Below the pieces are notes generated by a model. The model saw only the letters and a list, made by a program, of their open reading frames with translations. It was not told the DNA's origin and ran no database searches. The position numbers and the translations under genes are program-made. From NCBI RefSeq assembly GCF_000298235.1, contig NZ_BAHE01000007.1, positions 62,001 through 126,000 on the forward strand: a DNA stretch of 64,000 nt, given 5' to 3'. Below are positions 1,763-26,337 of the stretch, piece by piece (within the stretch, counting starts at the first letter, position 1; every line of letters starts with the position of its first letter). This DNA comes from Gordonia namibiensis NBRC 108229. GTDB lineage: Bacteria > Actinomycetota > Actinomycetes > Mycobacteriales > Mycobacteriaceae.

Positions 1763-2662
1763 CTAGCGGGCCAGGAACGCCAGGACCACCGACTCCCAGG
1801 CTTCTTTCTGCTCGATCATCACCCAGTGGCCGCAGTTCGGGAAGATGTGGATCTCACCGTGGGGGATCATCCGCATCGGCAGGATGGACATGTCGACCGG
1901 GCTGACCCGGTCGTCACGTCCCCACGTGATCAGCGTCGGGACGGACAGCTTGCGCAGGTTCGCCCATCCGGGTGTCGCCTCCGACGACCGCATCGCCTGC
2001 GCCATCCGGTCGAGTGCGGCCCGCCCGTACATGGCCCTCGAACTGGCCAGCGTGTCCGGGTCGGTGGCCTGCTCCCACCGTTCGTCGATCATCTGATCGG
2101 TGATCAGCGATCGGTCGTAGACCATCGAATTCAGCCAGGCCACCAGGGATTCGCGGGACGGGTTGTCGACGAACTCGCCGAGCCGGATGATGCCCTCACC
2201 CGGTTGCGGGCCGAACAGACTCGTCCCGGCACCGCCGACCGTCACCAGCTTCTCCACCCGCTCCGGATCGGAGAGCGCGAAGTCGGTGGCGACGAAGCCG
2301 CCCATGGAGTTGCCGATGAGTCGCACACGGTCGAGGCCGAGGCCGTCGAGGAGAGCCCGGACAGCGGTCGGGGCCGAGTGCATCGGGTGAGGCGCGCCGA
2401 AACTGTCGCTGACCCCGAAGCCGGGGAACTCCAGGACGATGGTCCGGTAGTGCCGGGCGAGAACCGGCATGTTGCCGCTGAAGTTGCGCCAGCCGGTCAC
2501 TCCGGGGCCGGAGCCGTGCAGCAACAGCAGAGGTGGTCCGTCGCCGGCCTCCCGATATCGCAATGTGCCGTGTTCGGTGGCGAGTTCACGGAGTTCGGGG
2601 ACGCCCGACGTCTCCGTCTTCTCGCTCGCTCCGGTTGTCTCGATCGCGCTGTCGGTCACCAT
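1763..2662 (-). CDS. Meta-cleavage product (HsaD-like) alpha/beta hydrolase
   Basis: A 299-residue hydrolase, counted from ATG 2662 (an upstream start at 2710 is possible but adds a basic, unconserved tail). The HGSGPG oxyanion motif (residues 50-54 region) is characteristic of meta-cleavage product hydrolases (BphD, HsaD). The nucleophile is Ser119 in GNSMGG, the acid lies in GRDDRVSP (about 250) and His279 is in CGHW. In steroid ring-A/B degradation HsaD hydrolyses the C-C bond of the extradiol cleavage product, giving 2-hydroxyhexa-2,4-dienoate and the C/D-ring acid. It lies 62 bp downstream of a run that includes HsaA-, HsaB- and HsaC-like genes, so the analogous step is likely. Hydrolysis of another ring-fission product is the alternative. 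Confidence 0.85.
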   Translation of the reverse strand: MVTDSAIETTGASEKTETSGVPELRELATEHGTLRYREAGDGPPLLLLHGSGPGVTGWRNFSGNMPVLARHYRTIVLEFPGFGVSDSFGAPHPMHSAPTAVRALLDGLGLDRVRLIGNSMGGFVATDFALSDPERVEKLVTVGGAGTSLFGPQPGEGIIRLGEFVDNPSRESLVAWLNSMVYDRSLITDQMIDERWEQATDPDTLASSRAMYGRAALDRMAQAMRSSEATPGWANLRKLSVPTLITWGRDDRVSPVDMSILPMRMIPHGEIHIFPNCGHWVMIEQKEAWESVVLAFLAR

Positions 2663-2724
2663 ACTCGCAGAGTCCCACCTCCGCGACCGGCGTGACGGCA
2701 CCCTTCCCATTCACCGGGCGTCGT

Positions 2725-3000
2725 TCAGTGCAGACGCGGAACGTTTTGTCCCACAGGGAGTTCGATACCACTCTCGGTGAGGGATTGCTCCGCGAACGCT
2801 TGATCGATGGTGCGGAGGAGCTGCTCGCACCCGTGGGTGTTCGCGCCGAAACCGGCACCGCTTCCGGCGTTCTCACGGGCCGCGATGAAAGGGCACTCGC
2901 GTGCGTCGAACGGCCACTGGATCGAGGTGTGCGCCGCGCTGAACTTCTCGACCAGCACCTCCCGGCCGCACCCGTGGCACGAGATGGGTTGCATGGTCAT
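2725..3000 (-). CDS. Small Cys-containing hypothetical protein
   Basis: A 91-residue soluble protein starting at ATG 3000, whose first four bases overlap the stop of the flavin reductase (ATGA). It opens with MTMQPISCHGCGREVLVEKF, a CxxC knuckle (Cys8, Cys11), followed by a conserved-looking DARECPF and a later HGCEQLL. The four cysteines (8, 11, and those in ECPF and HGCEQ) could bind a metal, most simply zinc. I do not recognise a named family. Its tight position in a catabolic operon between the flavin reductase and the HsaD-like hydrolase suggests an accessory role. An alternative start is the second Met at 2994. Confidence 0.6.
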   Translation of the reverse strand: MTMQPISCHGCGREVLVEKFSAAHTSIQWPFDARECPFIAARENAGSGAGFGANTHGCEQLLRTIDQAFAEQSLTESGIELPVGQNVPRLH

Positions 3001-3524
3001 ACAACGCCTCCGGCCGGATCCTCCGGACGAGCGATCCGACCGTAACCGCCGCGGTAGAACAACAGCGGCTCCTGGTCGGACGCGCGGAGATGATGCGCCC
3101 GCGCCACGACGATGGTGTGATCGCCCGCTGCGTGCTCGGCATCGAGCTCGGCGTCGATCCAGGCCAGTGCACCCGTCAGGACCGGGGCGCCCGAGGGCGC
3201 CGGTGTCCAGTCGACGTCGCGGAACTTGTCCGCACCGGGTGACGCCAGACGACGACAGACCGCTTCCTGCGAGTCGGCGAGGATGTTGATCGTGAACCGG
3301 CCTGCGGCACGCACGAGAGGCCATGACGTGCTGGTCAGGCCCACGCAGAACGCCACCAGCGGCGGATCGAGGGACACCGAGGTGAACGAGTTCGCCGCCA
3401 GCCCGACCGGTTCCCCGGAATCGGGATGGATACCGGTGATCGCCACGACGCCGGTGGCGAAGTGGCCCAGCACATGTCGCATCGATGCGCCGTCGACGAT
3501 CGGCCCGTCGGTCATCTGGCTCAC
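2997..3524 (-). CDS. Flavin reductase (HsaB-like), FMN-binding split barrel
   Basis: A 175-residue flavin:NAD(P)H reductase. The core reads RHVLGHFATGVVAITG, then GLAANSFTSVSLDPPLVAFCVG, FTINILADSQE, and HTIVVARAHHLRASDQEPLLFYRGGYG, which is the standard order of the flavin reductase (HpaC/HsaB) family. Such enzymes supply reduced flavin to two-component monooxygenases. The HsaA-like oxygenase at 12650-13834, in the same run, is the obvious partner; in the cholesterol pathway HsaA/HsaB hydroxylates the phenolic A ring of 3-HSA. The start may be Met1 or Met4. The end overlaps the small CxxC gene by 4 bp. Serving the BVMOs is unlikely because those use NADPH and bound FAD directly. Confidence 0.88.
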   Translation of the reverse strand: MSQMTDGPIVDGASMRHVLGHFATGVVAITGIHPDSGEPVGLAANSFTSVSLDPPLVAFCVGLTSTSWPLVRAAGRFTINILADSQEAVCRRLASPGADKFRDVDWTPAPSGAPVLTGALAWIDAELDAEHAAGDHTIVVARAHHLRASDQEPLLFYRGGYGRIARPEDPAGGVV

Positions 3525-3528
3525 CGTG

Positions 3529-5214
3529 TCACCCCGCGAGCCGGCCGGCCGCGCTCAGTGCGGCGATGTACCCGTAGACAAGGCCCTGTCCGATGGTCGC
3601 GCCCGCACCGGGGTAGGTCGCGCCGAACGCATTCGCCGCGGTGTTGCCGGTGGCGTACAGACCGTCGATCACCGATCCGTCCTCGCGCAGCACACGAGCC
3701 CGGTCGTCGGCCTGCAGACCGCCGCACGTCCCGAGATCGCTCAACTCCAGGCGTACGGCGAACAGTCCGCCGCCGAGCGCGCGGAGCGTGGGATTCGGGC
3801 TGATGGTCGGATCGCCGTAGTACTGCTCGTAGGCGTTGGTGCCGCGCCCGAACTCATGGTCGACGCCGACGGCGGCCGCCGCGTTGAACGCGTCGAAGGT
3901 GTTCCGGAACGCGGTCTCGTCGACACCCATGTGGATGGCCAGGTCACCCGGATCATCCGCGCGGACCGCGATGCCGTGCTCGTACCACGCTCGGGGCAGC
4001 GGCTGCCCGGGGAAGAGGCTGCCCGCCATGAGGTAGCTGTTGCGGTATCGCTGGTCGAAGACCAGCCACATGGTCCCGACCGGGTCGCCCGCCTGCTCCC
4101 GGGCGAGTACCCGCTGCCCGAAGGTCATGTAGTCGAGTGCCTCGTTGATGAAGCGGCGCCCGGACGCATCGACGATGAACGACCCCGGCAGTGACCGCTC
4201 GGCCAAGAGCACCGACGGCGACCCGCCGGGTACGGCCGCGACCGCGGGGAACCACCACGCCTGATCCATCGACGCCACCCCCGCGCCCAGGTCCTGACCG
4301 ATCTTGATCGCATCGCCCGTGTTCGTCGTGCAGCCCAGGCTGCTGTTCGCCGACAACGACTCCGATTGGAACTTGTGCCGCATCTCCATGTCGTGATCGA
4401 AACCGCCGGCCGCCAACACAACGCCTCGGCGCGCCCGCACGGTGACGTCGACGCCCTCCCGGTTCACCACGGCCCCCACCACCCGGCCGTCCTCGACGAC
4501 GAGATCGACCATGGGGGTGTCGGTCCAGATCGGGATGTCCGCGGCCAGCGCGCCCGCGAACAGCCCGGCGGCGATCGCCTGTCCGCCGGCGGCATACCGG
4601 CGCTTGACGACGAGCCCCCCGAGCCCGATACCCAATGCCTTCACGATGCGGCGGAGCGAACGACTCGGCGTGCTGCGCAACAGGTTCAGCCATTTGTAGT
4701 CGGCACCGGTGATGGGCATGGGCAGGGGTGATTCCATCAACCCCGGTCGCAGACGTGCCTGTTCGGGGCCGAGCGTGGCGACGTCGAAGGGCTTGCACTC
4801 GCAGGTGCGGCCGACGGCGGAACCGCCCGGCTCGTCGGGGTGGTAGTCGGAGTAGCCGCGCGCCCACATGAACGTCATCGGCGTCGTCCGCTCGAGCATC
4901 GCGATGGCCTCGGGACCGTGTTCGAGGAAGGCGGCACCCCTCTCGGCAGGGGCGCTGTCGCCCACCACCGCGCGCACGTAGTCGGCCGCGGCCGCCGGGC
5001 CGTCGTCGGGTTGCTCACGGCGCAGGATCGGATTGCCAGGCACCCAGAATGCCCCGCCGGAGCGCGCCGTCGAACCCCCGACGTACTCCGACTTCTCCAC
5101 CACCAGCGTCGACAGGGCTAGTTCGTGGCCGGCCAGGGCGGCCGCCAGTCCGGTACCCGAGCCGACGACCAGGAGATCGACGGTCGCAACGGTCTGTCCT
5201 ACGGTCTCGCTCAT
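3529..5214 (-). CDS. KstD-family FAD-dependent 3-ketosteroid dehydrogenase-like protein
   Basis: A 561-residue flavoprotein starting at ATG 5214 in an ATGA overlap with the BVMO stop. The residues known to be catalytic in Rhodococcus KstD1 (Tyr119, Tyr318, Tyr487, Gly491) are all present as Tyr124 (YSDYHP), Tyr362 (NEALDYM), Tyr534 (FGATYPGAG) and Gly538. The ring-substrate domain retains DLGTCGGL where other KstDs have DLGTKGG. The N-terminal dinucleotide loop reads VVGSGTGLAAA, one residue shorter than the usual GxGxxG. Family knowledge: 1,2-desaturation of 3-ketosteroids. It is the most divergent of three KstD relatives here and may act on a modified ring system, for example a 5alpha, oxygenated or degraded steroid. 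Confidence 0.82.
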   Translation of the reverse strand: MSETVGQTVATVDLLVVGSGTGLAAALAGHELALSTLVVEKSEYVGGSTARSGGAFWVPGNPILRREQPDDGPAAAADYVRAVVGDSAPAERGAAFLEHGPEAIAMLERTTPMTFMWARGYSDYHPDEPGGSAVGRTCECKPFDVATLGPEQARLRPGLMESPLPMPITGADYKWLNLLRSTPSRSLRRIVKALGIGLGGLVVKRRYAAGGQAIAAGLFAGALAADIPIWTDTPMVDLVVEDGRVVGAVVNREGVDVTVRARRGVVLAAGGFDHDMEMRHKFQSESLSANSSLGCTTNTGDAIKIGQDLGAGVASMDQAWWFPAVAAVPGGSPSVLLAERSLPGSFIVDASGRRFINEALDYMTFGQRVLAREQAGDPVGTMWLVFDQRYRNSYLMAGSLFPGQPLPRAWYEHGIAVRADDPGDLAIHMGVDETAFRNTFDAFNAAAAVGVDHEFGRGTNAYEQYYGDPTISPNPTLRALGGGLFAVRLELSDLGTCGGLQADDRARVLREDGSVIDGLYATGNTAANAFGATYPGAGATIGQGLVYGYIAALSAAGRLAG

Positions 5215-7226
5215 GACCGGACCGCCTCGGCGGCTGGACTGCGGACGGTGGCGTCGACGAACGTCAGATCCTCGGGGTGTGGTTCTCGCAGCATCGTCCA
5301 GTAGTCGACGAGACGCCACGGGCACGGCACCACGGCCCGGCCGGCACTGTTCCGGTAGTAGCTGTTGACCTGACCTCCCGGATGCATCCACACCGTCTCG
5401 TCGAGCGCTTCGTCCACCCGCGCGTTGTACTCCGCGAGCGCCTCGGGTCGCACATCCATGGACTGGTGATCGTTCTCGATCAGGTACTGCAGGCACTCGA
5501 CGATGTAGTGCACCTGCTCCTCGCTCGTGATGTTGTGCCCGGCACCGTGATTGGGTCCGGAGTTGGGTCCGGAGGTGACGAACAGGTTCGGGAATCCAGA
5601 CACCTGCACGCCCAGGTATGCACGCGGGTCCTCGCCGCCGTCCCACACCTGCGCCAGGCTCCTGCCGTCGCGGCCGACGATGTCGATCGCGGTGGTGAAC
5701 TGCAGTTTGAACCCGGTGGCCAGGATGATGACGTCGGCCTCGAGGAACTCCCCCTCGGTGGTGCGCACCCCGTCGGCGGTCACCTCGGCGAACGACGCGC
5801 GATGCAAGGAGACGTGATCGCGTTTGAGGGCCGCGTAGAAACCGGGGTCCTTGACGATCCGCTTGGCGTAGGGCCGGAAGTCGGGGGTCAGCTTCGCCAT
5901 GAGTTCGGGATCGTCGGCGAAGTTGTCCTGCAGATACTTCTGCGCGTTGCGGAGCACCATGTCGTTCTCGGCCGAGGCCGAGAAATGCGTCGCCGCCCAT
6001 TCCGGGTCCACTCGCGGCAGGCGGTACAGGTTGTCCGACGCGAACCAGTAGGACCGCAACCGGAACCACTCGTGGTAGAAGGGCAGGTGAGCGAGGGCCC
6101 ACCGTTGTTCTGCGGCAACGTCGTTGACGACTGCTCGCTCCGGAACGATCCAGTGGGGGGATCGTGCGACGACGTCGAGAGAGGCGACCTGGTCGACGAT
6201 GCTCGCCACCACCTGCACCGAGGTGCACCCGGTGCCGAGAACGATCACCTTCTTGCCGGCCAGATCCAGCGCCGGATCCCATTGCGCGGTGTGCACAACC
6301 GTCCCGGCGAAGGTGTCGAGGCCCGGGACGTCGGGGATGTTGGGTGCGTTCAACATGCCGAGTGCACTGACCACCGCACGCGCCGAACGCGTCGAGATCG
6401 TGCCCGCGGCATCGCGGATGACGACCTGCCACCGCTGATCACCCTCGGACCAGGTCGCGGAGACCACCTCGGTGTTCAGCCGGATGTGTTCGCGGAGGCT
6501 GTATTTGTCCACCACGGACAGCAGGTACCGCTGGTACTCGGGTCCGGTCGGGTAGTACCGGGTCCACTCGGGGTTGAGTTCGAACGAGTAGGAGTAGTAG
6601 TGACTCGGCGTGTCGACCGCTGCACCGGGGTAGAGGTTGCGGTGCCAGGTGCCGCCGATGTCGCTGCGCGCCTCGAACACCGTGTAGGAGAAGCCGGCCT
6701 CCCCCAGCTTGATCGCCGCGTTGATACCCGTGATCCCGGCGCCGATGACGATGACATCGAAGTCGGCGGGAGGAGCCACCGTCACCGGGACGTTCCGCCG
6801 GTCGCTGACGAATCCGGCCTGCTCCAAGAGGAGAGGGACGAACTCATCGTCGACCACCTGCGAGGTCGCCACCCGAGCCATGTCGGCGAAGACCTCGTCC
6901 GGCGGCACCCCCATGACGGCGGTCAGGTCGGAACCGACGAGGAGTTCGACGGCGCGTTCACGGATGTCGGCGACCACGTCCGCGGGGTACACGCCGGCAG
7001 GCAGGGCGTTGCTGTTCGCCGTCTGGTAGTGCGTTCCCGGTACGGAGATCTCGAGCCTGGACCCGAACTCCTCGAGCAGACCCAGATCGCCGGTCACGTG
7101 GATCAGTGACATCAGCAGGGGCGCCGGATCACAGTTCGCGATCGCGGCTCGCAGGGCTGCCTCGTCGACGGATGCCGAATCGGCGGCGCCTGAGTGGGTG
7201 GTCGCAGATACTGCGTTGGTCATCAT
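5211..7226 (-). CDS. Baeyer-Villiger monooxygenase with HAPMO-type N-terminal extension
   Basis: A 671-residue FAD/NADPH monooxygenase starting at ATG 7226 (ATGATG, overlapping the SDR stop). Residues about 1-150 are a helical extension like that of 4-hydroxyacetophenone monooxygenase. The first Rossmann motif is GAGITG (162-167), the BVMO fingerprint FxGxxxHxxxW is FAGTVVHTAQWD (306-317), and the NADPH motif is GTGCTS (331-336). The enzyme inserts oxygen beside a ketone to give an ester or lactone. It sits between an SDR (which could make the ketone) and a KstD-like dehydrogenase. Possible substrates are a side-chain or ring-D ketone. It is clearly different from the second BVMO of this cluster (10105-11724). 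Confidence 0.9.
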   Translation of the reverse strand: MMTNAVSATTHSGAADSASVDEAALRAAIANCDPAPLLMSLIHVTGDLGLLEEFGSRLEISVPGTHYQTANSNALPAGVYPADVVADIRERAVELLVGSDLTAVMGVPPDEVFADMARVATSQVVDDEFVPLLLEQAGFVSDRRNVPVTVAPPADFDVIVIGAGITGINAAIKLGEAGFSYTVFEARSDIGGTWHRNLYPGAAVDTPSHYYSYSFELNPEWTRYYPTGPEYQRYLLSVVDKYSLREHIRLNTEVVSATWSEGDQRWQVVIRDAAGTISTRSARAVVSALGMLNAPNIPDVPGLDTFAGTVVHTAQWDPALDLAGKKVIVLGTGCTSVQVVASIVDQVASLDVVARSPHWIVPERAVVNDVAAEQRWALAHLPFYHEWFRLRSYWFASDNLYRLPRVDPEWAATHFSASAENDMVLRNAQKYLQDNFADDPELMAKLTPDFRPYAKRIVKDPGFYAALKRDHVSLHRASFAEVTADGVRTTEGEFLEADVIILATGFKLQFTTAIDIVGRDGRSLAQVWDGGEDPRAYLGVQVSGFPNLFVTSGPNSGPNHGAGHNITSEEQVHYIVECLQYLIENDHQSMDVRPEALAEYNARVDEALDETVWMHPGGQVNSYYRNSAGRAVVPCPWRLVDYWTMLREPHPEDLTFVDATVRSPAAEAVRS

Positions 7227-8104
7227 GCACCTTCCGGTACTGGCACACCCATTCGGGTGAGCATGTCTCGTGGGTCGGCGGGCGGGGCGAGGTCGAGCAG
7301 TTGCCGGCCCCGCCGATGCGCTGCGGCCATGCACATCTCGTCGTCGGAGTGGATCCAGAACTCACCGGCCGCGATCTGATCGAGCATGTGGGCAGCGGCG
7401 TCGAGGGGATCGAGTCCGCGTTCGACGTTGTCGCGCTGCATCGCGGCGAACACCGCGTTGGCCGTGGGATTGTCGGTCGGGGCCTCGCGCAGTGCCGACC
7501 GGAAGATGTCGCTGCGGATCGAGTGCGGTATCACCGCACTCACCTGGATCGGTGCGCCGACGATGGACAGGTCCTGGTGGAGGCACTCGGTCATCGCCAG
7601 CACAGCATGCTTGCTGACGATGTACGGGGCCTGCACCGCAACGGCATTCAGGCCGCCGACCGAGGAGAGGTTGGCGATGCACGACGGGGTCCCGGCCGCG
7701 ATCATCCGCGGCACGAACGACTTGATGCAGTAGAAGACACCGTCGACGTTGATCTGCATGAGCCGCCGCCACCGGGCGTCGTCGATCTCCCAGATCAACC
7801 CGGCCGATTCGATCCCGGCGTTGTTGATCAGCAATTCCACACTGCCGTGGCCCTCGAACACCGCGGCCGCGAACTCCTCGACCCCGCGGGGGTCACCGAC
7901 GTCGACGGCGTAGGCGCTCGCCCGACCGCCGGCAGCACCGATGCCGTCGGCGACGGCCGCGGCGCGATCGCGATCGATGTCGGCCACCACCACGTGCATC
8001 CCGAGAAGGCCCACGCGACGCGCGAATCCCTCGCCGATACCGGCCGCGGCACCGGTGACCACTGCAGTCCCCGACGAAAACCGCTGTGCTGCTTCGTTGG
8101 TCAT
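7223..8104 (-). CDS. Short-chain dehydrogenase/reductase
   Basis: A 293-residue classical SDR with a long C-terminal tail. Residues 15-23 give TGAAAGIG, NNAG follows near 93, and the active site is SSVGG ... YIVSK. ADIDRD after strand 2 carries an Asp, which favours NAD(H). The extra C-terminal region (DEMCMAAAHRRGRQLLDLAPP) resembles SDRs found next to BVMOs in ketone degradation. It likely interconverts a secondary alcohol and the ketone used by the adjacent BVMO. The stop overlaps the BVMO start (ATGA). A 51-bp gap separates it from the upstream SDR, the largest break in this part of the run. Confidence 0.88.
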   Translation of the reverse strand: MTNEAAQRFSSGTAVVTGAAAGIGEGFARRVGLLGMHVVVADIDRDRAAAVADGIGAAGGRASAYAVDVGDPRGVEEFAAAVFEGHGSVELLINNAGIESAGLIWEIDDARWRRLMQINVDGVFYCIKSFVPRMIAAGTPSCIANLSSVGGLNAVAVQAPYIVSKHAVLAMTECLHQDLSIVGAPIQVSAVIPHSIRSDIFRSALREAPTDNPTANAVFAAMQRDNVERGLDPLDAAAHMLDQIAAGEFWIHSDDEMCMAAAHRRGRQLLDLAPPADPRDMLTRMGVPVPEGA

Positions 8105-8155
8105 GATTCCTGTCTCGCTCGATTCTGATCGTGGCCCGTCACGTCTGTTCGGCGT

Positions 8156-9061
8156 TCACACGCCGGCCGGCACGATGTGGGGGTTGGCCCAGGACGGTGG
8201 TTCGAGTGGCGGGAGCTGGGTGCGGCCGTCCACCGAGAACACCGGTGTCCCGGTGGCCCACGGATAGTGGAGGCTGAAGGCGACGAGGCCTGTGCGCTCG
8301 GCGGCCGGGAGCGTGCACATCTCCAGGACGGTCTGTGCCAGATAGTCCACCGGCTCGGTCTCGTAGCCGGCCGGCAGCAACGCCTCGGCGCCGGGGGTCA
8401 TGATCGCCGTCGACGGTCCGACCGCGTTGACCGCGATGTTGTCGTCGAGCAACTCGGCCGCGAGGCCCTGGGTGAACCGGTGCTGCGCCGCCTTGGCCGA
8501 TGCGTAGATCACGTCGCCGGAGGTCTTGTTGTACTCCCGGAACGGCCGGATGGGGCTCAGCCCGGTCGAGGAGCCGATGTTCACGATCCAACCCGCACCG
8601 TTGCGCCGCATGTGCGGGATCGCCTTCTGGGACAGGAGGAACGGCACCTTGAGGTAGTGCTCGATCGTCCGGTCGAAGGTCGCCACGCTCATGTCCTCGA
8701 CGGACGAGTAGTCGGCGAAGCCGGCGTTGTTGACCAGGATGTCGATGCCGCCGGCGGCCTCGACCACCTCGTCGACGAGGCGGTCGCGCTGTGCGGGATT
8801 CTCGAGATCGGCGGTGATCGCGTGGGCGGTTCCCCCGGCCTCCTCGATCAGGTGCACGGTCTCGTCGAGGGTTCCGGAGATCAACAGCTTCTCGCCGTTG
8901 CGGATCGACGGCGACGGCGTCGAGGATCGCGCGGTCACCACGACGGTCGCCCCGGCGCTCGCGAGCCGCCGGGCGATGCCGCGCCCGATCCCGCGGCTGC
9001 TGCCGGTCACCAGCGCGACCTTGCCGCTCAACTGCTGTGTCCCCGACTGCTGCGGTGTCAC
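8156..9061 (-). CDS. Short-chain dehydrogenase/reductase (second of the cluster)
   Basis: A 301-residue SDR starting at GTG 9061, which overlaps the hydrolase stop as GTGA; a much longer open frame upstream is only the antisense-rich continuation. Motifs: TGSSRGIGRGI near residue 18, NNAG, then NIGSSTGLSPIRPFREYNKTSGDVIYASAK. Two tyrosines (EYNK and YASAK) compete for the catalytic position; the YASAK one fits YxxxK. The insertion before it and the tail PWATGTPVFSVDGRTQLPPLEPPSW are unusual. A 3- or 17-hydroxysteroid dehydrogenase-like role is plausible from context, after ester hydrolysis by the neighbouring esterase. Substrate not proven. Confidence 0.85.
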   Translation of the reverse strand: MTPQQSGTQQLSGKVALVTGSSRGIGRGIARRLASAGATVVVTARSSTPSPSIRNGEKLLISGTLDETVHLIEEAGGTAHAITADLENPAQRDRLVDEVVEAAGGIDILVNNAGFADYSSVEDMSVATFDRTIEHYLKVPFLLSQKAIPHMRRNGAGWIVNIGSSTGLSPIRPFREYNKTSGDVIYASAKAAQHRFTQGLAAELLDDNIAVNAVGPSTAIMTPGAEALLPAGYETEPVDYLAQTVLEMCTLPAAERTGLVAFSLHYPWATGTPVFSVDGRTQLPPLEPPSWANPHIVPAGV

Positions 9062-10044
9062 GGTGCGCTCCTGACATCGTCGTCCGCAGGAGTCGCCGCG
9101 AGAACGTCGCGGATCATCTGCCAGACCTTCTCGCGAGCGGGTGGCGTGAGCGAGAGTTGCGGAAAGGTGAGGAAGCCGTGGAAGAGTCCGTCGAATCGAT
9201 GAGCGATCACCGGGACACCGGCGGCCTCGAGCAATCGGGCGTACTCCTCCCCGGCCGAACACGGCGGGTCGAGTTCGGCGGTGGCCACCACCGCCGGGGG
9301 CAGACCGGCCAATGTGTCTGCGCTGGTGGGGATCACCAGGGCGCTGTGCCGCCCCTGGGGTGCGTACTGCTCCCAATACCACCGCATGGCCTTGGTCGTG
9401 TTGTAGTACCCGACTCCGTAGTCGCGGTACGACGCGGTGTCGAAATCGTCGTCGATCACCGGGTACAGCAGGACCTGGGCGCACACCTTCGGCCCGTTGC
9501 GGTCGCGGGCGGCCAGACTGGTCGTGGCGGCCAGGTTTCCGCCCGCGCTGTCGCCGGCGAGCGCGATGCGGTGCGGGTCCCCACCGAACCCGGAGATGTT
9601 CTCCGACGTCCAGCACAGTGCCCGATAGACATCCTCCATCGCTGCCGGGGCCCGGTGTTCGGGCGCGAGACGGTAGTCGACCGCCACCACGACCGCACCC
9701 ACTTCCGCCGCCATCGATCGACAGAACTCGTCGTGGCTGTCCAGGTCGCAGAAGACGAACCCGCCGCCGTGGGCGAACACGACGACCGGCAGACCTCCGC
9801 TCCTGTCCGCGTCGTCGGAATCGCGGTGCGGCACGAACACTCGCAGCGCCAGGTCGCCGCCCGGTCCGTCGATCGTGAGATCGCGGGCGGTCGCCATGTC
9901 CGGCTGTCGGGTGAGCGGAGCACGCCGAGACACGATGATCTCCCGCAGCTCGCGGGGATCATGTTCGGTCACGTCGGGGAATCCTGCTTCGAGGGCGGTC
10001 AGCATCGCTTCGACGTCGGGATGCAGGTCGCTACGACGACTCAT
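9058..10044 (-). CDS. HSL-family (family IV) esterase/lipase
   Basis: A 328-residue alpha/beta hydrolase. FAHGGGFVFCD gives the HGGG oxyanion hole of hormone-sensitive-lipase-type esterases, VDYRLAPEH follows, and GDSAGG carries the nucleophile. The acid is expected in AELDPPCSAGEEYA and the His is in FDGLFHGF. These enzymes hydrolyse short acyl esters. It lies directly downstream of the PAMO-type BVMO, an arrangement in which the BVMO makes an acetate ester from a methyl ketone and the esterase releases acetate plus the alcohol. That job assignment is an inference from order; the family call is firm. The end is coupled to the SDR by a GTGA overlap. Confidence 0.9.
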   Translation of the reverse strand: MSRRSDLHPDVEAMLTALEAGFPDVTEHDPRELREIIVSRRAPLTRQPDMATARDLTIDGPGGDLALRVFVPHRDSDDADRSGGLPVVVFAHGGGFVFCDLDSHDEFCRSMAAEVGAVVVAVDYRLAPEHRAPAAMEDVYRALCWTSENISGFGGDPHRIALAGDSAGGNLAATTSLAARDRNGPKVCAQVLLYPVIDDDFDTASYRDYGVGYYNTTKAMRWYWEQYAPQGRHSALVIPTSADTLAGLPPAVVATAELDPPCSAGEEYARLLEAAGVPVIAHRFDGLFHGFLTFPQLSLTPPAREKVWQMIRDVLAATPADDDVRSAP

Positions 10045-10104
10045 GTCGGTGTCCTATCCGTCGGTGTTCCATCCGTCTGGATGGTGTGGGATCGCGTCAT
10101 CGGG

Positions 10105-11724
10105 TCAGGTGATCTCGAAGCCCTTGTAACCGGCCTCGGCCACCTCGGCGCACACGTTCGCGTAGTTCCCGAACCCGCCGATGTACGGCATGAAGACGCG
10201 GGGTTTACCCTCGATGTTGGCGCCCATGTACCACGAGTTCGCCGAGGGGAACAGGGTGCCGGCCGCCTTGGCCGAACACTCGGCGACCCAGCTGTCGACC
10301 GCGTCGTTCTCCGCCTCGATGGTCGCCGAATTGTGTTCGTCGAGATGACGGATGGCGTCGGCGACCCAGTCCACATGCTGTTCGGCACCGAGGACCATGT
10401 TGGCCAGGACGCTCGGGCTCCCCGGCCCGGTGAGGATGAACATGTTCGGGAAGCCGTGCACCGCCAGGCCGAGGTAGGTGCGGGGCCCCGCGGCCCATTC
10501 CTCGGTGAGAGTGCGTTCGCCACGTCCGCGGATGTCGATGCGGGACAACGATCCGGTCATCGCGTCGAACCCGGTGGCGAAGATGAGCATGTCGAGCTCG
10601 ATGTTCTCCCCCGAGGTCCGGACCCCGGTCCTGGTGATCTCCTCGATCGGGGTCTCGCGCAGGTTGACCAGGGTCACGTTGCTGCGGTTGAACGTCTCGA
10701 AATACCCACTGTCGGTGACGATCCGCTTGGTGCCGATCGGGTGATCCGTCGGGATCAGGATGTCGGCGACGGCCGGGTCCCGGACGATCTCCCGGATGCG
10801 CGCCTCGACGTATTCACGCGCGGTGTCGTTGGCCGCGAGGTTGGTGGTCTGGTCGGGGAACGCCTTGGCGAACAGATAGCCGCCGCGTTGCCACCACTCG
10901 TCGTAGACGCGGGTACGTTCCGCCTCGTCCACCTCGAGTGCACCCTTGGGGTACGGAGCGTTCGGGGTCCCTCCCCCGCTCATCCGGGAGAGCCGGCGGC
11001 GTTCGGCGTAGTTGGCCTTGACCTCGGCGATGGTCTCCTCGGACAGCGGCCGGTTACCCGCGGGGATGGAGTAGTTGGGACTGCGCTGGAACACCACGAG
11101 GTGTTCGGCACTCTCGGCGATCACCGGGATCGACTGGATGCCCGACGACCCGGTGCCGATGACACCCACGCGTTTGCCGGCGAAATCGACGTCGTGATGC
11201 GGCCATTCACCGGTGTGGTAGGTCTCACCGGCGAACAGATCACGGCCCGGGATGTCGGGTTTGTTGGTCGCGGAGAGAACGCCGGTCGCCATGATCAGGA
11301 ACCGCGCGGTCACGGTGGAGCCGGTGTCGGTGCTCACCGACCACTGCGCGAGTTCCTCGTCGTAGGTGGCCGCGGTGACCCGTGTGAGGAAGTCGAAGGC
11401 ACTTCGGAGGTCGAACCGGTCCGCGACATGACGCAGGTAGGCGAGGATCTCCGCCTGCGTCGCGAAACGCTCGGTCCAGGTCCATTCCTGTTGCAGGTCT
11501 TCGTCGAATGAGTACGAGTAGTCGATGCTCTCCACATCGCACCGCGCCCCGGGGTACCGATTGTGGTACCAGGTTCCGCCGACGTCCGCGGCGGACTCGA
11601 AACCGTGCACGTCGAGGCCCTCGCCGCGGAGCTTGTGGACGGCGTAGAGGCCGGAGATGCCCGCGCCGATGACGATCACGTCGTGATCGGTCGTCCGCGC
11701 CCCCTGCGTGTCTGAGATGGTCAC
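10105..11724 (-). CDS. Baeyer-Villiger monooxygenase (PAMO/steroid monooxygenase type)
   Basis: A 539-residue enzyme starting at GTG 11724 in a GTGA overlap with the dioxygenase stop; 539 residues is the normal type I BVMO length. Motifs: GAGISG (20-25), GGTWYHNRYPGARCD, the fingerprint FAGETYHTGEWP (164-175), GTGSSG for NADPH, and a C-terminal FPNMFILTGPGSPS / SWYMGANIEGKPR typical of phenylacetone and steroid monooxygenases. Such enzymes convert a methyl ketone to an acetate ester; the Rhodococcus steroid monooxygenase turns progesterone into testosterone acetate. Next to an HSL esterase and SDRs this supports side-chain removal from a C21-like steroid. A cyclic-ketone substrate remains possible. 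Confidence 0.92.
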   Translation of the reverse strand: MTISDTQGARTTDHDVIVIGAGISGLYAVHKLRGEGLDVHGFESAADVGGTWYHNRYPGARCDVESIDYSYSFDEDLQQEWTWTERFATQAEILAYLRHVADRFDLRSAFDFLTRVTAATYDEELAQWSVSTDTGSTVTARFLIMATGVLSATNKPDIPGRDLFAGETYHTGEWPHHDVDFAGKRVGVIGTGSSGIQSIPVIAESAEHLVVFQRSPNYSIPAGNRPLSEETIAEVKANYAERRRLSRMSGGGTPNAPYPKGALEVDEAERTRVYDEWWQRGGYLFAKAFPDQTTNLAANDTAREYVEARIREIVRDPAVADILIPTDHPIGTKRIVTDSGYFETFNRSNVTLVNLRETPIEEITRTGVRTSGENIELDMLIFATGFDAMTGSLSRIDIRGRGERTLTEEWAAGPRTYLGLAVHGFPNMFILTGPGSPSVLANMVLGAEQHVDWVADAIRHLDEHNSATIEAENDAVDSWVAECSAKAAGTLFPSANSWYMGANIEGKPRVFMPYIGGFGNYANVCAEVAEAGYKGFEIT

Positions 11725-12632
11725 GATGCTGACTCCTTGGCCTGCCGGGCCCACATCCACTCGTGGCCCCAATAACTGTCGGCGGTGATTTCTTCTGCGG
11801 TGTAATGAGTTTCGTCGACCAGCATCCCGCCGGTGCCGTACTCGATGTCCCAACCACCCGGTACCCGGACGTAGAACGAGACCATCTTGTCGTTGGTGTG
11901 CCTGCCCAGAGTCGATGAGACCGGGAAGTCGCGGGCCATGACCTGGTCGTACGCCCGGCCGACGGCGTCGAGTTCGTCGACCTCGACCATCACGTGGATG
12001 AGCCCGGGGTCACGCCCTTCCAGCGCCGGCATTATGGCGAGGCTGTGGTGCCGCTGGTTGATCCCGAGGAAGCGGATCCTCGACGGCGGCATCCCGGGCG
12101 GCGTGGGCATCCGGAACGCCCCCCGCGGCAGGAATCCCAGTGTCTCGGTGTAGAACACGTAGGACTCGTCGAAGTTGGCCGTCGGCATCACGACGTGCCC
12201 CAGCCCCTGGGGGCCGGTGATGAACTTCTGTCCGTACCTGGTGAGAACCGGGCTGTGGTCGAGCACCGGGCCGTGGAAGATCTCGAGCGGCGTTCCGCCG
12301 GGATCCTTCAGGCTGATGCCGGCCTCGATCCGTCGGTGATCACACAGGTCCTGGTCCATCTCCGAGTACGGGGTCCCGGCCTCGTCGAGCACTCGCCGGA
12401 GTTCGGCGAGTGCGAGGTGGTCGCGCACCTCCCAGCCGACTGCCGTGACCCGGTCGGCATTGCCTCGTTCCACAGTTATCCGAGCTGTGCGCTCGTCCAT
12501 CCGGAAGTGAAGCGCATCCTCTTCGGGTCCGGTCCCCGGCGCGAATCCTAGTACCTCGAAACCCAACTCGCGCCACCGATCGATGTCGGTGGCCATCACC
12601 CGTACGTAGCCGAGCGCTGCGATCAGACCCAT
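11721..12632 (-). CDS. Type I extradiol dioxygenase (HsaC/BphC-like)
   Basis: A 303-residue two-domain VOC protein. The C-terminal domain carries the Fe(II) ligands His146 (GLGHVVM), His213 (LIHVMVE) and Glu264 (WDIEYG). The second-sphere residues His195 (QRHHS), His245 (GRHTND) and Tyr254 (SFYVRV) line up with BphC His195, His241 and Tyr250. It should cleave a catechol ring next to the hydroxyls. In the steroid pathway HsaC opens ring A of 3,4-DHSA. The upstream HsaA-like oxygenase would supply the catechol and the HsaD-like hydrolase would process the product. Full active site, normal length; the exact catechol is inferred. Confidence 0.92.
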   Translation of the reverse strand: MGLIAALGYVRVMATDIDRWRELGFEVLGFAPGTGPEEDALHFRMDERTARITVERGNADRVTAVGWEVRDHLALAELRRVLDEAGTPYSEMDQDLCDHRRIEAGISLKDPGGTPLEIFHGPVLDHSPVLTRYGQKFITGPQGLGHVVMPTANFDESYVFYTETLGFLPRGAFRMPTPPGMPPSRIRFLGINQRHHSLAIMPALEGRDPGLIHVMVEVDELDAVGRAYDQVMARDFPVSSTLGRHTNDKMVSFYVRVPGGWDIEYGTGGMLVDETHYTAEEITADSYWGHEWMWARQAKESAS

Positions 12633-12649
12633 CGTCGTGATCCCCCGGC

Positions 12650-13834
12650 TCAGATCATCACCCGCAGGGGACCTGCGGGGACCTCGACACCCAGGGACGC
12701 CAGCGCGGCGGCGTGATAGGTGGTGCTGGTGACATGGATCGCGTGGTGCAGTCCGGCGTGCGCGTCCCGCCAGAACCGCTGCAACGGATTGTCCATCCGC
12801 AGCGCGTTGCCGCCAGACCGATCGAAGATCTCGTCGGCCGCGCGGACCGCGCGCCAGGCGGCACGGATCTGATTGCGTCGCGAGGTGGCCCGCATCTCGA
12901 AGTCGATCTCGGTACCGGCGTCGACGAGGTCGTAGATGCGATCGACGTTGCCCAAGAGCTGTTGCCGGGCGGCGTCGATCTCGGCGGCCGCCTCACCGAG
13001 TGCGTGCAGGACGTAGGGGTCGTCCTTGATCGCGCCACCCGTTGCGGCCACCCGATCGCGCTGATAGGCGATTCCCGCTGCCAGCACACCTTCACAGATA
13101 CCGATGGTCGCCGAGGTGATCCCCAGCGGGAACATCGTCGACCACGGCATCTTGTAGAGCGTCTCGGTGACGCCGTACTCCTTCGCCGCAGTGCCGTCGA
13201 TGACGTCCCCGGAGCGCATCACACGATGTGCCGGGATGAAGGCGTCCTCGACGATGATGTCCTTGCTGCCGGTTCCCCGGAGCCCCACCACATCCCAGGA
13301 ATCCTCGACGATCTGGTAGTCCGACCGCGGCAGGATGACATGCAGACCGACCGGCGGCATCAGCGGTTTGCCGTCCGCGTCACCGGTGAAGGCGCCGAGG
13401 AAGATCCAGTCGCAGTGGTCGGTGCCGGAGGAGAACTGCCACCGCCCCGTCATCCGGTAACCGCCCTCGACGGGTGTTGCGACACCACCGGGCATGTAGG
13501 GCGACGCCTGCCAGGTGTCCGAGTCGCCGCCGAGCACTTCGTCCTGGACCCGCGGGTCGGCGAAGGCCAGCTGCCACGGGTGGACGCCGACGATCCCGCC
13601 GATCCATCCGGCCGACCCGTAGATGCCCGCCGTCCCCATCACGGTTTCGGCGAACTCCCTCGGGTGCGCCTCGTACCCGTCGTAGGTCTTGCGCTGGAGC
13701 AGCCGGATGATGCCGGATTGCTTGAGTCCCTTCGCGACATCGTCGGAGAGTCGTCCGAGTTTCTCGGACTCCTCCGCACCCGCGCGCAGTTCGTCGGCCA
13801 TGTCCATGACCTTGTCGAGCACTTCGTGGCTCAT
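12650..13834 (-). CDS. HsaA-like flavin-dependent monooxygenase, oxygenase component
   Basis: A 394-residue protein of the acyl-CoA-dehydrogenase fold. Instead of acyl-CoA residues it has the pattern of class D flavin monooxygenases: GIIRLLQRKTYDGYEAHPREFAETV, then GWIGGIVGVHPWQLAFADPRVQDEV, GRWQFSSGTDHCDWIFLGA, VGLRGTGSKDIIVEDAFIPAHRV, and a C-terminal FWRDAHAGLHHAIH. These match HsaA of the cholesterol pathway in order and length. HsaA hydroxylates 3-HSA to the catechol using reduced flavin from HsaB, here probably the product of 2997-3524. A clear Shine-Dalgarno GAGGAG precedes ATG 13834. A distinct phenolic substrate is possible because this is a paralogous set away from the KstR boxes. 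Confidence 0.9.
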   Translation of the reverse strand: MSHEVLDKVMDMADELRAGAEESEKLGRLSDDVAKGLKQSGIIRLLQRKTYDGYEAHPREFAETVMGTAGIYGSAGWIGGIVGVHPWQLAFADPRVQDEVLGGDSDTWQASPYMPGGVATPVEGGYRMTGRWQFSSGTDHCDWIFLGAFTGDADGKPLMPPVGLHVILPRSDYQIVEDSWDVVGLRGTGSKDIIVEDAFIPAHRVMRSGDVIDGTAAKEYGVTETLYKMPWSTMFPLGITSATIGICEGVLAAGIAYQRDRVAATGGAIKDDPYVLHALGEAAAEIDAARQQLLGNVDRIYDLVDAGTEIDFEMRATSRRNQIRAAWRAVRAADEIFDRSGGNALRMDNPLQRFWRDAHAGLHHAIHVTSTTYHAAALASLGVEVPAGPLRVMI

Positions 13835-13886
13835 AGGTGTTCTCCTCAGAAGTGAGCGCCGGCGGCGCTCGGTGTTGTCGATGGGG

Positions 13887-15092
13887 TCAGGACACGGACT
13901 GGCCGGCGCCCTCGCGGTTCGGTGCCGAGGCCGGGTTCTGCGCCAGGGCGCTTCGCCCGGCGGCGAGGTTCTCGTCGACCTCGGCTTGCCAGCTCTTCAG
14001 TGCGCGTTCGGTGTCGATCTGGTACTCGAATCGATTGACCATCTCCGGCGCGATGTCCTCGACGTCGACGTAGAACTGCTCGTACCAGCGCCGGAGCTGG
14101 TAGACAGGCCCGTCTTCTTCGCACAGCAGAGGATTGTCGATGCGCGACTTGTTCTTCCAGATCTGCACGTCCTGTTCGAAGCCGATGGCGACTCCCTTCG
14201 CAACGGCCTGTGCGATCTGGTTCGCCTGCTCGTCGGCCATCCCCGCGGGCTTCTCGACGAGCACGCCGTACTGCAGCCGGAACGATGTCGGCGAGATCGG
14301 ATAGTGGCAGTTGACCAGGTAGATGTTCGGGTCGCCGTCGTGATCACGGCCGCCGCTCCAGAGCTTGTCGATCATGTACGAGGGTCCGAAATACGATGCG
14401 TCGGACTGGCTCTCGGTGCTGTAGTTGGTGCTCTGGCTCACCCCGGCCGCATCCGCGCGGGGTCGCGACCGCATGACCTGACTGGCGATGTGCCCCTCGA
14501 AGACGTTCTTGAAGTAGGTCGGCATGCCGTAGTGCACGTAGAAGAAGTGCGCCATGTCGACGACGTTGTCGACGATCTCGCGGCAGTGCGATCCGGTCAC
14601 GTCGATCGAGTTCCACACCCAGTCGGTCCAGCCCTCGTCGCCGTAGGTCGGGATCTCCGGGATGGCGAGCTCGGGGGGCGGAACCGATCCCTGCGGATCG
14701 TGCCAGACGAACAGCTGGCCACTCACCACCGTGGACGTCCAGGCCCGTGTTCGCGCAATGGGCGGAACCCTTTTCGCGTACGGGATCCCGGCGCACTTGC
14801 CGTCGCCGCGCCAACGCCAGTCGTGGAAGGGGCAGGCGATCGTGTTGCCCTTGACGGTTCCGAGCGCCAGGTTGCCGCCCATGTGCCGGCAGAAGGCGTC
14901 GAGCACGTTCAACGTGCCGCCCTCGCCGGCGAAGACCACGAGTTCGGTACCGAACGCGGCCACCTGGTGCGGAGCTCCGTCGGCGAAATCGCGAACCAGT
15001 CCGAGGCAGTGCCATCCCCGGGCGTAACGCTGTGGCGGCGCACCGGTGTCGATGTCCCTGACTTCGCCGCTGGGTTCGATGGTCGTACTCAC
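13887..15092 (-). CDS. KshA-like Rieske non-haem iron oxygenase
   Basis: A 401-residue oxygenase starting at GTG 15092 with AGGAGG just upstream; the longer frame from 15185 lacks a ribosome site. The Rieske cluster ligands are Cys68-His70 (FCRHMGG) and Cys87-His90 (CPFHDW). The catalytic iron ligands are His182 and His187 (DMAHFFYVH) and Asp308 (FEQDVQIW), as in KshA. Also KshA-like are GRDHDGDPNIYLV and the C-terminal YEQFYVDVEDI. KshA 9alpha-hydroxylates 3-ketosteroids, which with KstD breaks ring B. The reductase gene lies directly upstream. It may be a KshA paralogue with a different substrate preference; a 3-ketosteroid is the best guess. Confidence 0.92.
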   Translation of the reverse strand: MSTTIEPSGEVRDIDTGAPPQRYARGWHCLGLVRDFADGAPHQVAAFGTELVVFAGEGGTLNVLDAFCRHMGGNLALGTVKGNTIACPFHDWRWRGDGKCAGIPYAKRVPPIARTRAWTSTVVSGQLFVWHDPQGSVPPPELAIPEIPTYGDEGWTDWVWNSIDVTGSHCREIVDNVVDMAHFFYVHYGMPTYFKNVFEGHIASQVMRSRPRADAAGVSQSTNYSTESQSDASYFGPSYMIDKLWSGGRDHDGDPNIYLVNCHYPISPTSFRLQYGVLVEKPAGMADEQANQIAQAVAKGVAIGFEQDVQIWKNKSRIDNPLLCEEDGPVYQLRRWYEQFYVDVEDIAPEMVNRFEYQIDTERALKSWQAEVDENLAAGRSALAQNPASAPNREGAGQSVS

Positions 15093-15218
15093 AACGCCTC
15101 CTGATCGGATGATCGCGACCGTGCCACTCGTCGCGGTGTCCTCAGCTTGGCAACCAGGGCGCCCGGTGTGACGTGGGTCTCCCATCGAGTGGGAGGGCTT
15201 TTCGGCACCACCGCGAGT

Positions 15219-16292
15219 TCAGTACTCGATCGTGATCTTCTCGCCCACCGACTCGGCCTGGCAGGCCAGGATGTATCCCTCGGCGATCTCGTCGTCGGAC
15301 AGAATCTCGTTGTGCGCCAATCGAACCTCACCCGAGGTGAGACTGCAGACGCACGCGCTGCACGCCCCTTCCCGGCAGGAGAACGGCGCATCGAGACCCG
15401 CCTCCAGCAGCGCGTCGAGGAGCTTCTTCCGGCCCCTCCAGGGCACCACGTGCGATTCGCCGTCGAGGTGGACCTCGACCGAACACCCCGGATCGTCGTC
15501 GTCCTCGGGCGCCTCGTCCCCGACGGGGCCGGCGGCGTCGAAGGGGTTGCCCTGCAACGAGACGAACCGCTCCGCATGAACCCGACCACGCTCGATGCCC
15601 AGCGCCTCGCACACCGAGGCGACGAGGTCCATCAGCGGCGGCGGTCCGCACACGTAGACCTGCCGGTCGAGGTATGGCTGCAGCAGAGCAGACAGGCCCG
15701 CACCGGTCGGCCGCCCCTGGACGGAGTCCAGCAGGTGGACGACGCTGAACCGGGTGCCGTGGCGATCCGCGAGCTCACGCAGCTCCTCCGCGAAGACGAC
15801 CGACCGCTCGTCGCGGTTGGCGTAGATGAGCGCGACGTGTCCGGAACCCGCGACGAGGATCGACTTCGCGATCGAGATCACCGGGGTGATGCCGCTCCCG
15901 CCGGCGATGAGCACGACCGACTCGTCGAGCGACTTCGGGCCGAACGTACCCGCCGGCGGGAGGACCTCGAGTTCATCCCCCGACGTGATCGTGTCGCAGA
16001 CCCAGTTGGAGCCGTGACCGCCGTGCACGCGTTTGACCGTGACCTTGAGGGTCGTGTCCACGTGAGGCGAACTCGCGAGCGAATAGCATCGCGCTCCCCC
16101 TCGGCCCTGGTCGGGCACCCGGATGGTCAAGAACTGGCCCGCGGAGTAGCCGAACGCCGCAGTGTCCTCGGGCGCGGGTTCGACCAGCAACGACCTGGTG
16201 TCGTGCGTCTCGTCGACGACACCGACGACCCTGACTCTCCGGCCGCGCCGATCGTCACGGCCGTCAATCCTGTCCCAGATCATGGTGCCCAC
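15219..16292 (-). CDS. KshB-like ferredoxin-NAD(P)H reductase with C-terminal [2Fe-2S] domain
   Basis: A 357-residue electron-transfer protein. The order is an FAD domain (RCYSLASSP near 85), an NAD(P)H domain (GGSGITP, then YVCGPPPLMD) and a plant-type [2Fe-2S] domain with CREGACSACVC and the last Cys in LACQAES. This is the KshB/HmpA arrangement. It should reduce the adjacent Rieske oxygenase. It is first in the minus-strand run, facing the IclR gene. Start: GTG 16292 or ATG 16283 (Met4); both have only a weak G-rich ribosome site. An acidic linker (EAPEDDDDPG, about 270) separates reductase and ferredoxin parts. Confidence 0.92.
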   Translation of the reverse strand: MGTMIWDRIDGRDDRRGRRVRVVGVVDETHDTRSLLVEPAPEDTAAFGYSAGQFLTIRVPDQGRGGARCYSLASSPHVDTTLKVTVKRVHGGHGSNWVCDTITSGDELEVLPPAGTFGPKSLDESVVLIAGGSGITPVISIAKSILVAGSGHVALIYANRDERSVVFAEELRELADRHGTRFSVVHLLDSVQGRPTGAGLSALLQPYLDRQVYVCGPPPLMDLVASVCEALGIERGRVHAERFVSLQGNPFDAAGPVGDEAPEDDDDPGCSVEVHLDGESHVVPWRGRKKLLDALLEAGLDAPFSCREGACSACVCSLTSGEVRLAHNEILSDDEIAEGYILACQAESVGEKITIEY

Positions 16293-16349: not shown

Positions 16350-16529
16350 AGCGCCGAACAGACGGGAATCATACGAATCGGCGCCCCCGATTCCGGCGGT
16401 CGTTCCGCTGGACGGGAAGCCCATCGGCGGAGGCCGTCCGCCGGGGCGAAGATGGGCAACCGGACCAGCACCCCGTGGCGAGAGCCACAACACGCGGGGT
16501 ACTGTGACGAGCATCACGGAGGAGGATTG

Positions 16530-18912: not shown

Positions 18913-19017
18913 CAGGCGCCACACCCCTGCTCGGAATCATCGCCGATCGCGCATCGATCGGCGCCACATCACGAGACGCTAGCCGCGGCGGCCGCAACCC
19001 ACGTGGGGGTCTCCCGC

Positions 19018-24673: not shown

Positions 24674-24683
24674 GAAGGACACC

Positions 24684-26319: not shown

Positions 26320-26337
26320 CCCGCGCTCAGGCGCGGG
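26320..26337. terminator. Hairpin between convergent genes
   Basis: CCCGCGC, loop TCAG, GCGCGGG: a perfect 7-bp GC stem lying across the 9-bp gap between the convergent hydrolase (ends 26317) and ferredoxin reductase (ends 26327). No T-run follows. It could end transcription from both sides, as is common for I-shaped terminators in actinobacteria. Confidence 0.5.

Follow-up and report, generated by a model that had tools for sequence, protein, structure and literature searches.

A run of 13 genes on the minus strand of Gordonia namibiensis NBRC 108229 places a steroid-type Baeyer-Villiger monooxygenase (BVMO) among genes for steroid ring opening, and we propose, at a probability of roughly three in four, that it is a second operon for steroid catabolism, one devoted to C21 20-ketosteroids of the progesterone or pregnenolone type. 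The run occupies positions 1763-16292 of the stretch analysed here, a 64,000-nucleotide window (C61:62001-126000 in our contig numbering) from a genome of 4.94 Mb in 67 contigs. It was delimited by an open-reading-frame reading of that window, whose G+C content is 67.7% and whose nearest named relatives are actinobacteria. Judged by sequence, the run is a second set of steroid ring-opening genes beside a canonical one.

The genes follow one another as a KshB-like reductase (15219-16292), a KshA-like Rieske 3-ketosteroid 9alpha-hydroxylase oxygenase (13887-15092), an HsaA-like flavin-dependent hydroxylase (12650-13834), an HsaC-like extradiol dioxygenase (11721-12632), the BVMO (10105-11724), an HSL-family esterase (9058-10044), two short-chain dehydrogenases/reductases (SDR1, 8156-9040; SDR2, 7223-8104), a second BVMO of 671 amino acids (BVMO2, 5211-7226), a 3-ketosteroid delta1-dehydrogenase (KstD-a, 3529-5214), an HsaB-like flavin reductase (2997-3524), the small protein Orf91 (2725-3000) and an HsaD-like C-C hydrolase (1763-2662). 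The largest intergenic gap is 126 bp, and four gene pairs overlap by 4 bp (HsaC/BVMO, SDR2/BVMO2, BVMO2/KstD-a and HsaB/Orf91), the first of these overlaps coupling the BVMO to the ring-cleavage gene. Adjoining the run are a divergent IclR-family regulator gene (16530-17327, plus strand) and an additional KstD gene (KstD-b, 17335-18924, minus strand). An earlier note, made from the sequence alone, had put a BVMO, an HSL esterase, SDRs and KshA/B, KstD and HsaA/B/C/D-like genes on one minus-strand run with an IclR regulator. Its calls were right, all of these frames being intact, with zero internal stops, and matching their families; it passed over BVMO2, Orf91, KstD-b and the KstR boxes that lie elsewhere in the window. 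It had also described the BVMO as of the PAMO/steroid type; the following comparisons favour the steroid type.

The BVMO is 65% identical (346/530 residues) to the steroid monooxygenase (STMO) of Rhodococcus rhodochrous (PDB 4aos), an enzyme that turns progesterone into testosterone acetate (PMC12239570). Its PDB ranking puts STMO (784 bits) ahead of phenylacetone monooxygenase (PAMO, 626 bits) and cyclohexanone monooxygenase (512 bits), the type I BVMO signature FxGxxxHxxxW[P/D] is present as FAGETYHTGEWP, and the Rossmann motifs read GAGISG and GTGSSG. In a quickly computed tree of 86 BVMO rows, from which PAMO is absent, the window protein and 4aos share a clade of 27 rows with an SH-aLRT support of 96. 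Rows labelled for ring genes (at least two in the fetched flank) number 19 of 27 inside this clade, the window's own row having been labelled by hand, compared with 1 of 59 outside it. The possibility that the enzyme is PAMO-like and acts on non-steroid methyl or cyclic ketones, its neighbourhood with ring-opening genes being coincidental, strikes us as highly improbable: STMO-like BVMOs of 50-57% identity do seldom lie near ring genes (1/42 loci with at least two), but the PDB ranking and the overlap with hsaC argue against it, as does the recurrence of the linkage in Rhodococcus, Nocardia, Amycolatopsis and mycobacteria. A reading of the enzyme as a simple-ketone BVMO was set aside on its PDB ranking and its membership of the STMO clade.

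The esterase gene starts 60 bp downstream of the BVMO gene; its product has HGGG and GDSAG motifs, scores 329.5 bits against LipP1 (cut-off 350) and is our proposed steroid acetate esterase. SDR1 and SDR2, both matching SDR families and both with TGxxxGxG and YxxxK motifs, are proposed hydroxysteroid dehydrogenases. In one congeneric genome, G030 (locus L028), the IclR gene stands beside the BVMO-HSL-SDR1-SDR2 unit alone, and in another, G017 (locus L027, BVMO 97% identical), the run has no detected kshB2 or hsaB2. Side-chain removal is thus modular in its behaviour, and a run can lose the reductases.

All seven functions of 9,10-seco opening of rings A and B (KshAB, KstD and HsaABCD) are present as intact frames of the right family. 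KshA matches solved 3-ketosteroid 9alpha-hydroxylases (PDB 4qdc, 558 bits; KshA_C 286.6 bits) and has a Rieske motif, and the KshB-like protein carries Fer2, FAD and NAD domains (Pfam). Motif patterns were matched in KshA, KshB (FAD, NAD and 2Fe-2S), HsaC and HsaD; a dinucleotide-binding pattern tried on KstD-a gave no match, and KstD-a passes the NF009479 cut-off (951.7 vs 793 bits). KstD-b, whose best PDB match is the 3-ketosteroid dehydrogenase 4c3x (471 bits), is over no cut-off among the NCBIfam families listed. The four Hsa proteins fall under their NCBIfam equivalog cut-offs: HsaA 385 of 450 bits (NF045629), HsaB 183 of 230 (NF045630), HsaC 327 of 450 (NF045631; also 344 of 366 for TIGR03213) and HsaD 262 of 400 (NF045632, on the frame from 2665). 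They are therefore a paralogous set and are not filed as cholesterol-pathway equivalogs.

The canonical set lies ahead of the run on the same contig, its hsa genes and HsaF at a distance of about 12-25 kb. It comprises an HsaC that does exceed its cut-off (557.6 bits, C61:39708-40595), HsaB and HsaA relatives beside it, and a KshA at C61:42278. Only one HsaF over the cut-off occurs in the genome, at C61:51092-52090, some 10 kb ahead of the window; three further HsaF matches, all elsewhere, are weak (at most 45 bits). HsaE- and HsaG-like genes adjoin this HsaF and are preceded by a KstR box. The lower pathway of the run thus has to be shared with the canonical set. The genome holds three KshA_C genes, the third match (164.8 bits) being at G000:C7:18539-19165.

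From these homologies we infer the following route. The STMO-type BVMO would insert oxygen between C17 and C20, converting progesterone to testosterone acetate; the HSL esterase would remove the acetate to give testosterone; and an SDR would oxidise the 17-hydroxyl to the ketone, giving androstenedione (AD). KstD and KshAB would then aromatise ring A and open ring B to a 9,10-secosteroid, which HsaAB would convert to a catechol, HsaC would cleave in meta fashion and HsaD would hydrolyse to the C/D-ring acid and a C6 dienoate, with HsaE/F/G supplied by the canonical KstR-type cluster. By analogy with Caenibius tardaugens, where 1,2-dehydroprogesterone occurs as an intermediate (PMC12239570), KstD may precede the BVMO. 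R. ruber KstD2 prefers progesterone, and ro09040 of R. jostii RHA1 belongs to that KstD2 branch (PMC5348764). The HSL pairing extends past the STMO clade, which would be expected of an esterase that hydrolyses the ester product of the BVMO.

The distribution of these genes among relatives agrees with a linked function. Counted at E 1e-200 or better, the BVMO occurs in 14 of 59 congeneric genomes, six times at 76-100% identity and eight times at 60-62%. Some HsaC-like match is found in 59/59 genomes, canonical ones being 42-45% identical to the window HsaC; the alternative HsaC is present in 14/14 BVMO genomes (60-100% identity) vs 3/45 without the BVMO (Fisher p = 5e-11, uncorrected for relatedness). 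The three are G013 (58%), G025 (62%) and G029 (61%), and in the stretch fetched from G025 a BVMO in two pieces lies beside the cluster. BVMO and HsaC are at most about 4 kb apart in 13 of the 14 genomes and about 50 kb apart in G030. In addition, we compared 84 loci, the best 80 of 589 relatives in a profile scan with the BVMO alignment plus four plasmid loci. Ring genes were counted from 50% identity upwards and the HSL gene from 35%, within flanks no longer than 10 kb (12-15 kb for plasmids), and some loci end early at contig ends. Loci with at least two ring genes made up 7/8 at a BVMO identity of 70% or more, 7/13 at 60-70%, 4/21 at 57-60% and 1/42 at 50-57%; an HSL esterase was nearby in 8/8, 10/13, 12/21 and 7/42, respectively. 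Comparable clusters are present in Rhodococcus, Nocardia, Amycolatopsis and mycobacteria and on plasmid pRHL1 of R. jostii RHA1. On plasmid pLRE138 of R. erythropolis R138 (L114), IclR, KshA, HsaA, HsaC, BVMO, HSL, SDR1, SDR2, BVMO2 and Orf91 keep the order of the window, and kshB, kstD-a, hsaB and hsaD had no match in the fetched stretch. As pLRE138 is typed as mobilizable, much of the arrangement may move between strains.

Comparison with known steroid clusters gave counterpart genes, 49-79% identical to those of the window, in two halves about 19 kb apart on pRHL1, a linear plasmid. The half at 962.9-974.1 kb holds KshB, KshA, HsaA, HsaC, SDR1, HsaB, Orf91 and HsaD, and that at 993.1-1002.3 kb holds IclR, BVMO, HSL, SDR1 in two pieces, SDR2, BVMO2 and KstD. 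The two SDR1 pieces overlap (L115:17790-18326, pRHL1 997242-997778), and a full-length SDR1 homologue stands at 968137. Bergstrand et al. 2016 (PMC4810484) reported an A/B-ring cluster on pRHL1, with 'function, if any, unknown'. The gene kshA4 is ro09003 (PMC4064121) and is probably the KshA gene at 964 kb of pRHL1.

Other known systems share part of this design. The R. rhodochrous STMO is the same kind of type I BVMO and falls in the same supported clade; the account in PMC12239570 treats it as a purified enzyme whose catabolic pathway has not been described, whereas its orthologue in the window is in an operon with an esterase, SDRs and ring-opening genes. In the pdc system of C. tardaugens a BVMO converts progesterone to testosterone acetate and so supplies the 9,10-seco pathway, but that system consists of four genes (BVMO, LLM, TetR and LuxR), and the hydrolase that removes the acetate is given there as unidentified (PMC12239570). 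Cluster D of Nocardioides simplex has extra kshA, kshB, hsaB, hsaC, hsaD and kstD genes and no predicted KstR sites, although the main text of PMC7807495 names no Baeyer-Villiger enzyme (0 occurrences). The kstD2 of N. simplex has been linked to the TetR regulator SRTF1. In Pimelobacter simplex (L061) an STMO-like gene lies beside an HSL gene, and the fetched flank is without a ring gene. With the KstR cholesterol regulon the run shares its ring-opening chemistry and the lower pathway; it differs in having no exact KstR box and in standing apart from the canonical hsa set (C61:39-42 kb).

The exact KstR box TNNAACNNGTTNNA has 0 matches within the run, compared with four in the window (0.10 expected), at 32374, 32395, 45953 and 48264. 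With up to one mismatch there are 13 in the window and five in the run, and those five are inside genes; cholesterol or KstR control of the run was set aside on these two grounds. KstR-independent steroid clusters are already known, among them N. simplex cluster D (PMC7807495) and the C-19+ cluster of Mycobacterium smegmatis.

For the regulator gene, read with a GTG start after GGAGG, the shorter frame 16587-17327 gave Pfam matches to IclR_C (95.7 bits) and HTH_IclR (41.3 bits). Just ahead of the window, at G000:C61:61253-61861 (L024), is a further IclR-type gene (34% identical), and a similar gene follows a Dabb gene in L035 and L037. An expectation-maximisation (EM) motif search on nine intergenic regions beside iclR, with the near-identical L027 left out, returned two palindromes. 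Box A, GTGAYnnnnRTCAC, adjoins iclR (16502-16519 in the window, just 5' of the gene) and occurs in all ten iclR intergenic regions, the nine used for training and that of L027. Box B, TCCCRnTnnnYGGGA, lies nearer the catabolic genes. Their EM scores, 76.1 for Box A (width 16) and 59.3 for Box B (width 15), exceed the best values from 12 resampled sets, 32.9 and 31.7, although the real regions were given 80 starts and each resampled set 25. The nine regions are related by descent, so the EM result alone is weak. Box B was also tested in held-out loci, where sites were counted only at a position weight matrix score of at least 13.

Five Box B sites occur in the window: before kshB (16403-16417, score 14.6, in the training set), before kshA (15180-15194, score 16.1, outside the window's training stretch), before kstD-b (19012-19026, score 16.5), between two divergent genes that match SnoaL_2 (31848-31862, score 18.4), and inside SDR1. 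KstD-b is a likely member of the same regulon, and we would guess that the SnoaL-like pair serves the isomerisation of pregnenolone. Box B is shared with RHA1: 71 kb of pRHL1 contain 13 sites (30 resamples: mean 1.6, maximum 5), seven of which precede KshB, KshA, SDR1, HsaB, KstD, a KstD-b fragment and the BVMO by 122-298 bp, the BVMO site having been used in training. Of the other six, one falls within KshB and five are not close to any of the genes listed. In 37 held-out related loci we counted 106 sites. Of these, 79 precede a homologue of a window gene by no more than 300 bp (1.9 expected) and 69 precede a core gene (1.3 expected), a term used here for homologues of Ksh, Hsa, KstD, BVMO or HSL; a core site is present in 31 of the 37 loci. 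Among the first 23 of these loci, eight had been inspected earlier and the siteless L040 had been left out; because of this selection 14 other held-out clade loci were added, which contributed 20 sites, 12 of them upstream of core genes, with 8/14 loci having one. Kinship among the held-out loci, and between them and the training loci, means that their sites are not independent. Across the 59 other STMO-like loci, one of which (L092) carries ring genes, there were 20 sites (18.2 expected), four of them upstream of core genes (0.4 expected). Of the nine mycobacterial loci listed, five have zero sites. A Box B match in an hsaE-like gene (L024:11361), considered as control of hsaEGF, was rejected, being intragenic and below a KstR box at L024:11930.

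The Box B pattern suggests an IclR regulon apart from KstR. We infer from the position of the IclR gene that its product binds Box B; in this model the divergently encoded IclR would act as a repressor through the 15-bp palindrome before kshB, kshA, kstD-b and the SnoaL-like pair. For R. ruber, the authors of PMC8228715 concluded that kshA1 and kshA2 must have regulators besides KstR. Their primer for the minimal kshA2 promoter, CH584, continues after its EcoRI site with CGCCCAGCGGGA, and this stretch of the primer agrees with Box B over its last 12 positions, the one exception being position 7, where it has C for T, as does the window's kshB site.

Box B is also found with ring genes where STMO is absent, in IclR-linked Ksh/Hsa loci (L138-L142) with sites before hsaA, hsaB, hsaD or kshA; G017 holds two of these loci besides its own STMO cluster and its canonical one. 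They bear on a second explanation, in which the run is mainly a cluster for C19 androgens, like the C-19+ cluster of M. smegmatis, with an androgen such as AD as inducer and the BVMO as an accessory that widens the input. We hold this as a serious but less favoured alternative, and one operon could serve both classes. In its favour are the Box B loci with KshA, HsaA, HsaC and IclR yet no STMO, the 22,438-fold induction of R. ruber kshA2, a gene without a KstR motif, on AD (PMC8228715), and the requirement of any C19 core for ring genes. Against it, the alternative HsaC in the genus is nearly confined to BVMO genomes, and the BVMO-HSL-SDR-SDR unit stands alone beside the same IclR gene in L028. 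We think it rather more likely than not that TCCCRnTnnnYGGGA marks an IclR-controlled steroid regulon apart from KstR/KstR2, common to Rhodococcus, Nocardia, Amycolatopsis, Streptomyces and some mycobacteria, which would govern C21 and C19 clusters, including that of RHA1 pRHL1, and would supply the control so far missing for kshA and kstD copies that are independent of KstR.

Several observations count against a dedicated C21 operon under IclR control. Substrate is poorly predicted by BVMO similarity: the progesterone-active Caenibius BVMO shares only 30.4% identity with STMO, whereas one with 47.6% was not differentially expressed (PMC12239570). The equivalog cut-offs missed by the HsaA-D-like proteins mean that their substrates may differ, and the L027 run has neither of the two reductases detected. 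As to control, the window's Box B count of five (30 resamples: mean 1.2, maximum 4) is modest alone, and the loose IUPAC form with up to two mismatches gave 82 matches vs 91 expected; this form was set aside as proof of Box B for want of enrichment in the window. The rest of the contig, 74 kb, has four sites, a density of 5.4 per 100 kb that is higher than in the other controls, and 6/37 held-out loci lack a core site. Immediately ahead of the BVMO gene, Box B occurs in 5/19 held-out clade loci vs 3/59 others (p = 0.018). Many linked IclR proteins have a similar recognition helix, but so does the one encoded by the IclR gene just before the window, and the L138-L142 loci mean that the regulon is not specific to C21 steroids. 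Set against these points, the STMO orthology, the hsaC overlap, the co-occurrence, the L028 unit and the palindrome all fit the earlier note's proposal of side-chain removal plus ring opening for a C21-like steroid, which we regard as partly supported, and its view of separate control on account of a missing KstR box agrees with the zero exact matches and the shared non-KstR palindrome. It had called the gene set self-contained, which does not hold: the HsaE/F/G-type genes are, as it had itself expected, outside the run, in the canonical set, and relatives can lack kshB2 and hsaB2. It had also overlooked BVMO2.

BVMO2 (fingerprint FAGTVVHTAQWD) has an N-terminal extension of about 150 amino acids, its best PDB stretches falling in residues 149-402, a layout we take to be like that of hydroxyacetophenone monooxygenase. 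In the genus it accompanies the closer BVMO group (6/6 genomes) and is found at 43% identity in 1/53 others. One could imagine that BVMO2 opens ring D, turning the 17-ketone into a D-ring lactone that a lactonase, for instance the SMP-30 protein (30165-31112), would open, as part of a ring C/D route. Its confinement in the genus to genomes with a close STMO would suit this, as would the conservation on pRHL1 of the SMP-30/SDR/P450 run behind the Box B site at 31848; we nevertheless consider the idea unlikely, since our search gave no steroid D-ring BVMO of the BVMO2 subfamily, gene order is the sole basis of the SMP-30 link, and in G017 BVMO2 is in two pieces in different frames (L027:13218-15231) while most of its neighbours are full length, which suggests that it is dispensable. 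In two regions read on Sphingobium plasmids, BVMO2 homologues (about 40%) were not among evident steroid ring genes. Orf91, between hsaB and hsaD, has four cysteines (CxxC...C...C) that are invariant in 5/5 aligned loci; a weak RNHCP-domain match (E 0.0089) appeared in one of these five, and a Pfam scan of the window Orf91 gave no family. Structure predictions for BVMO2 and Orf91 (mean pLDDT 43 and 63) were both too poor to use.

Several neighbouring gene runs accompany the 13 genes. On the plus strand, 20345-26317 encodes an ECH protein, two acyl-CoA dehydrogenases, a CoA-transferase-like protein, a GntR-type protein and an esterase; both in G030 and on pRHL1 of RHA1 the homologues of this run adjoin the same IclR gene, and it may belong to the same catabolic system. 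A cytochrome P450, a ferredoxin, a ferredoxin reductase, an SDR and an SMP-30/gluconolactonase follow at 26327-31112, 53-74% identical to pRHL1 944.0-948.7 kb. Farther on, 32374-48277 has the four exact KstR boxes together with genes for acyl-CoA dehydrogenases, a lipid-transfer thiolase and a KstD that exceeds its cut-off (978.8 bits), and on this content is an ordinary KstR-type steroid set adjoining the unusual run.

Our searches of open-access papers yielded no description of this operon, of an actinobacterial STMO pathway or of an IclR steroid regulon, the palindrome itself not having been searched for; the chemistry is known, and its assembly and control appear not to have been described before. 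Our analysis places the STMO orthologue with ring-opening genes and offers a candidate for the esterase that removes the acetate. It provides a testable function for the orphan cluster on RHA1 pRHL1 and a predicted operator for steroid genes whose authors require regulators besides KstR (PMC8228715). These predictions are relevant to the removal of progestogen pollutants and to industrial strains whose extra KshA and KstD copies degrade products.

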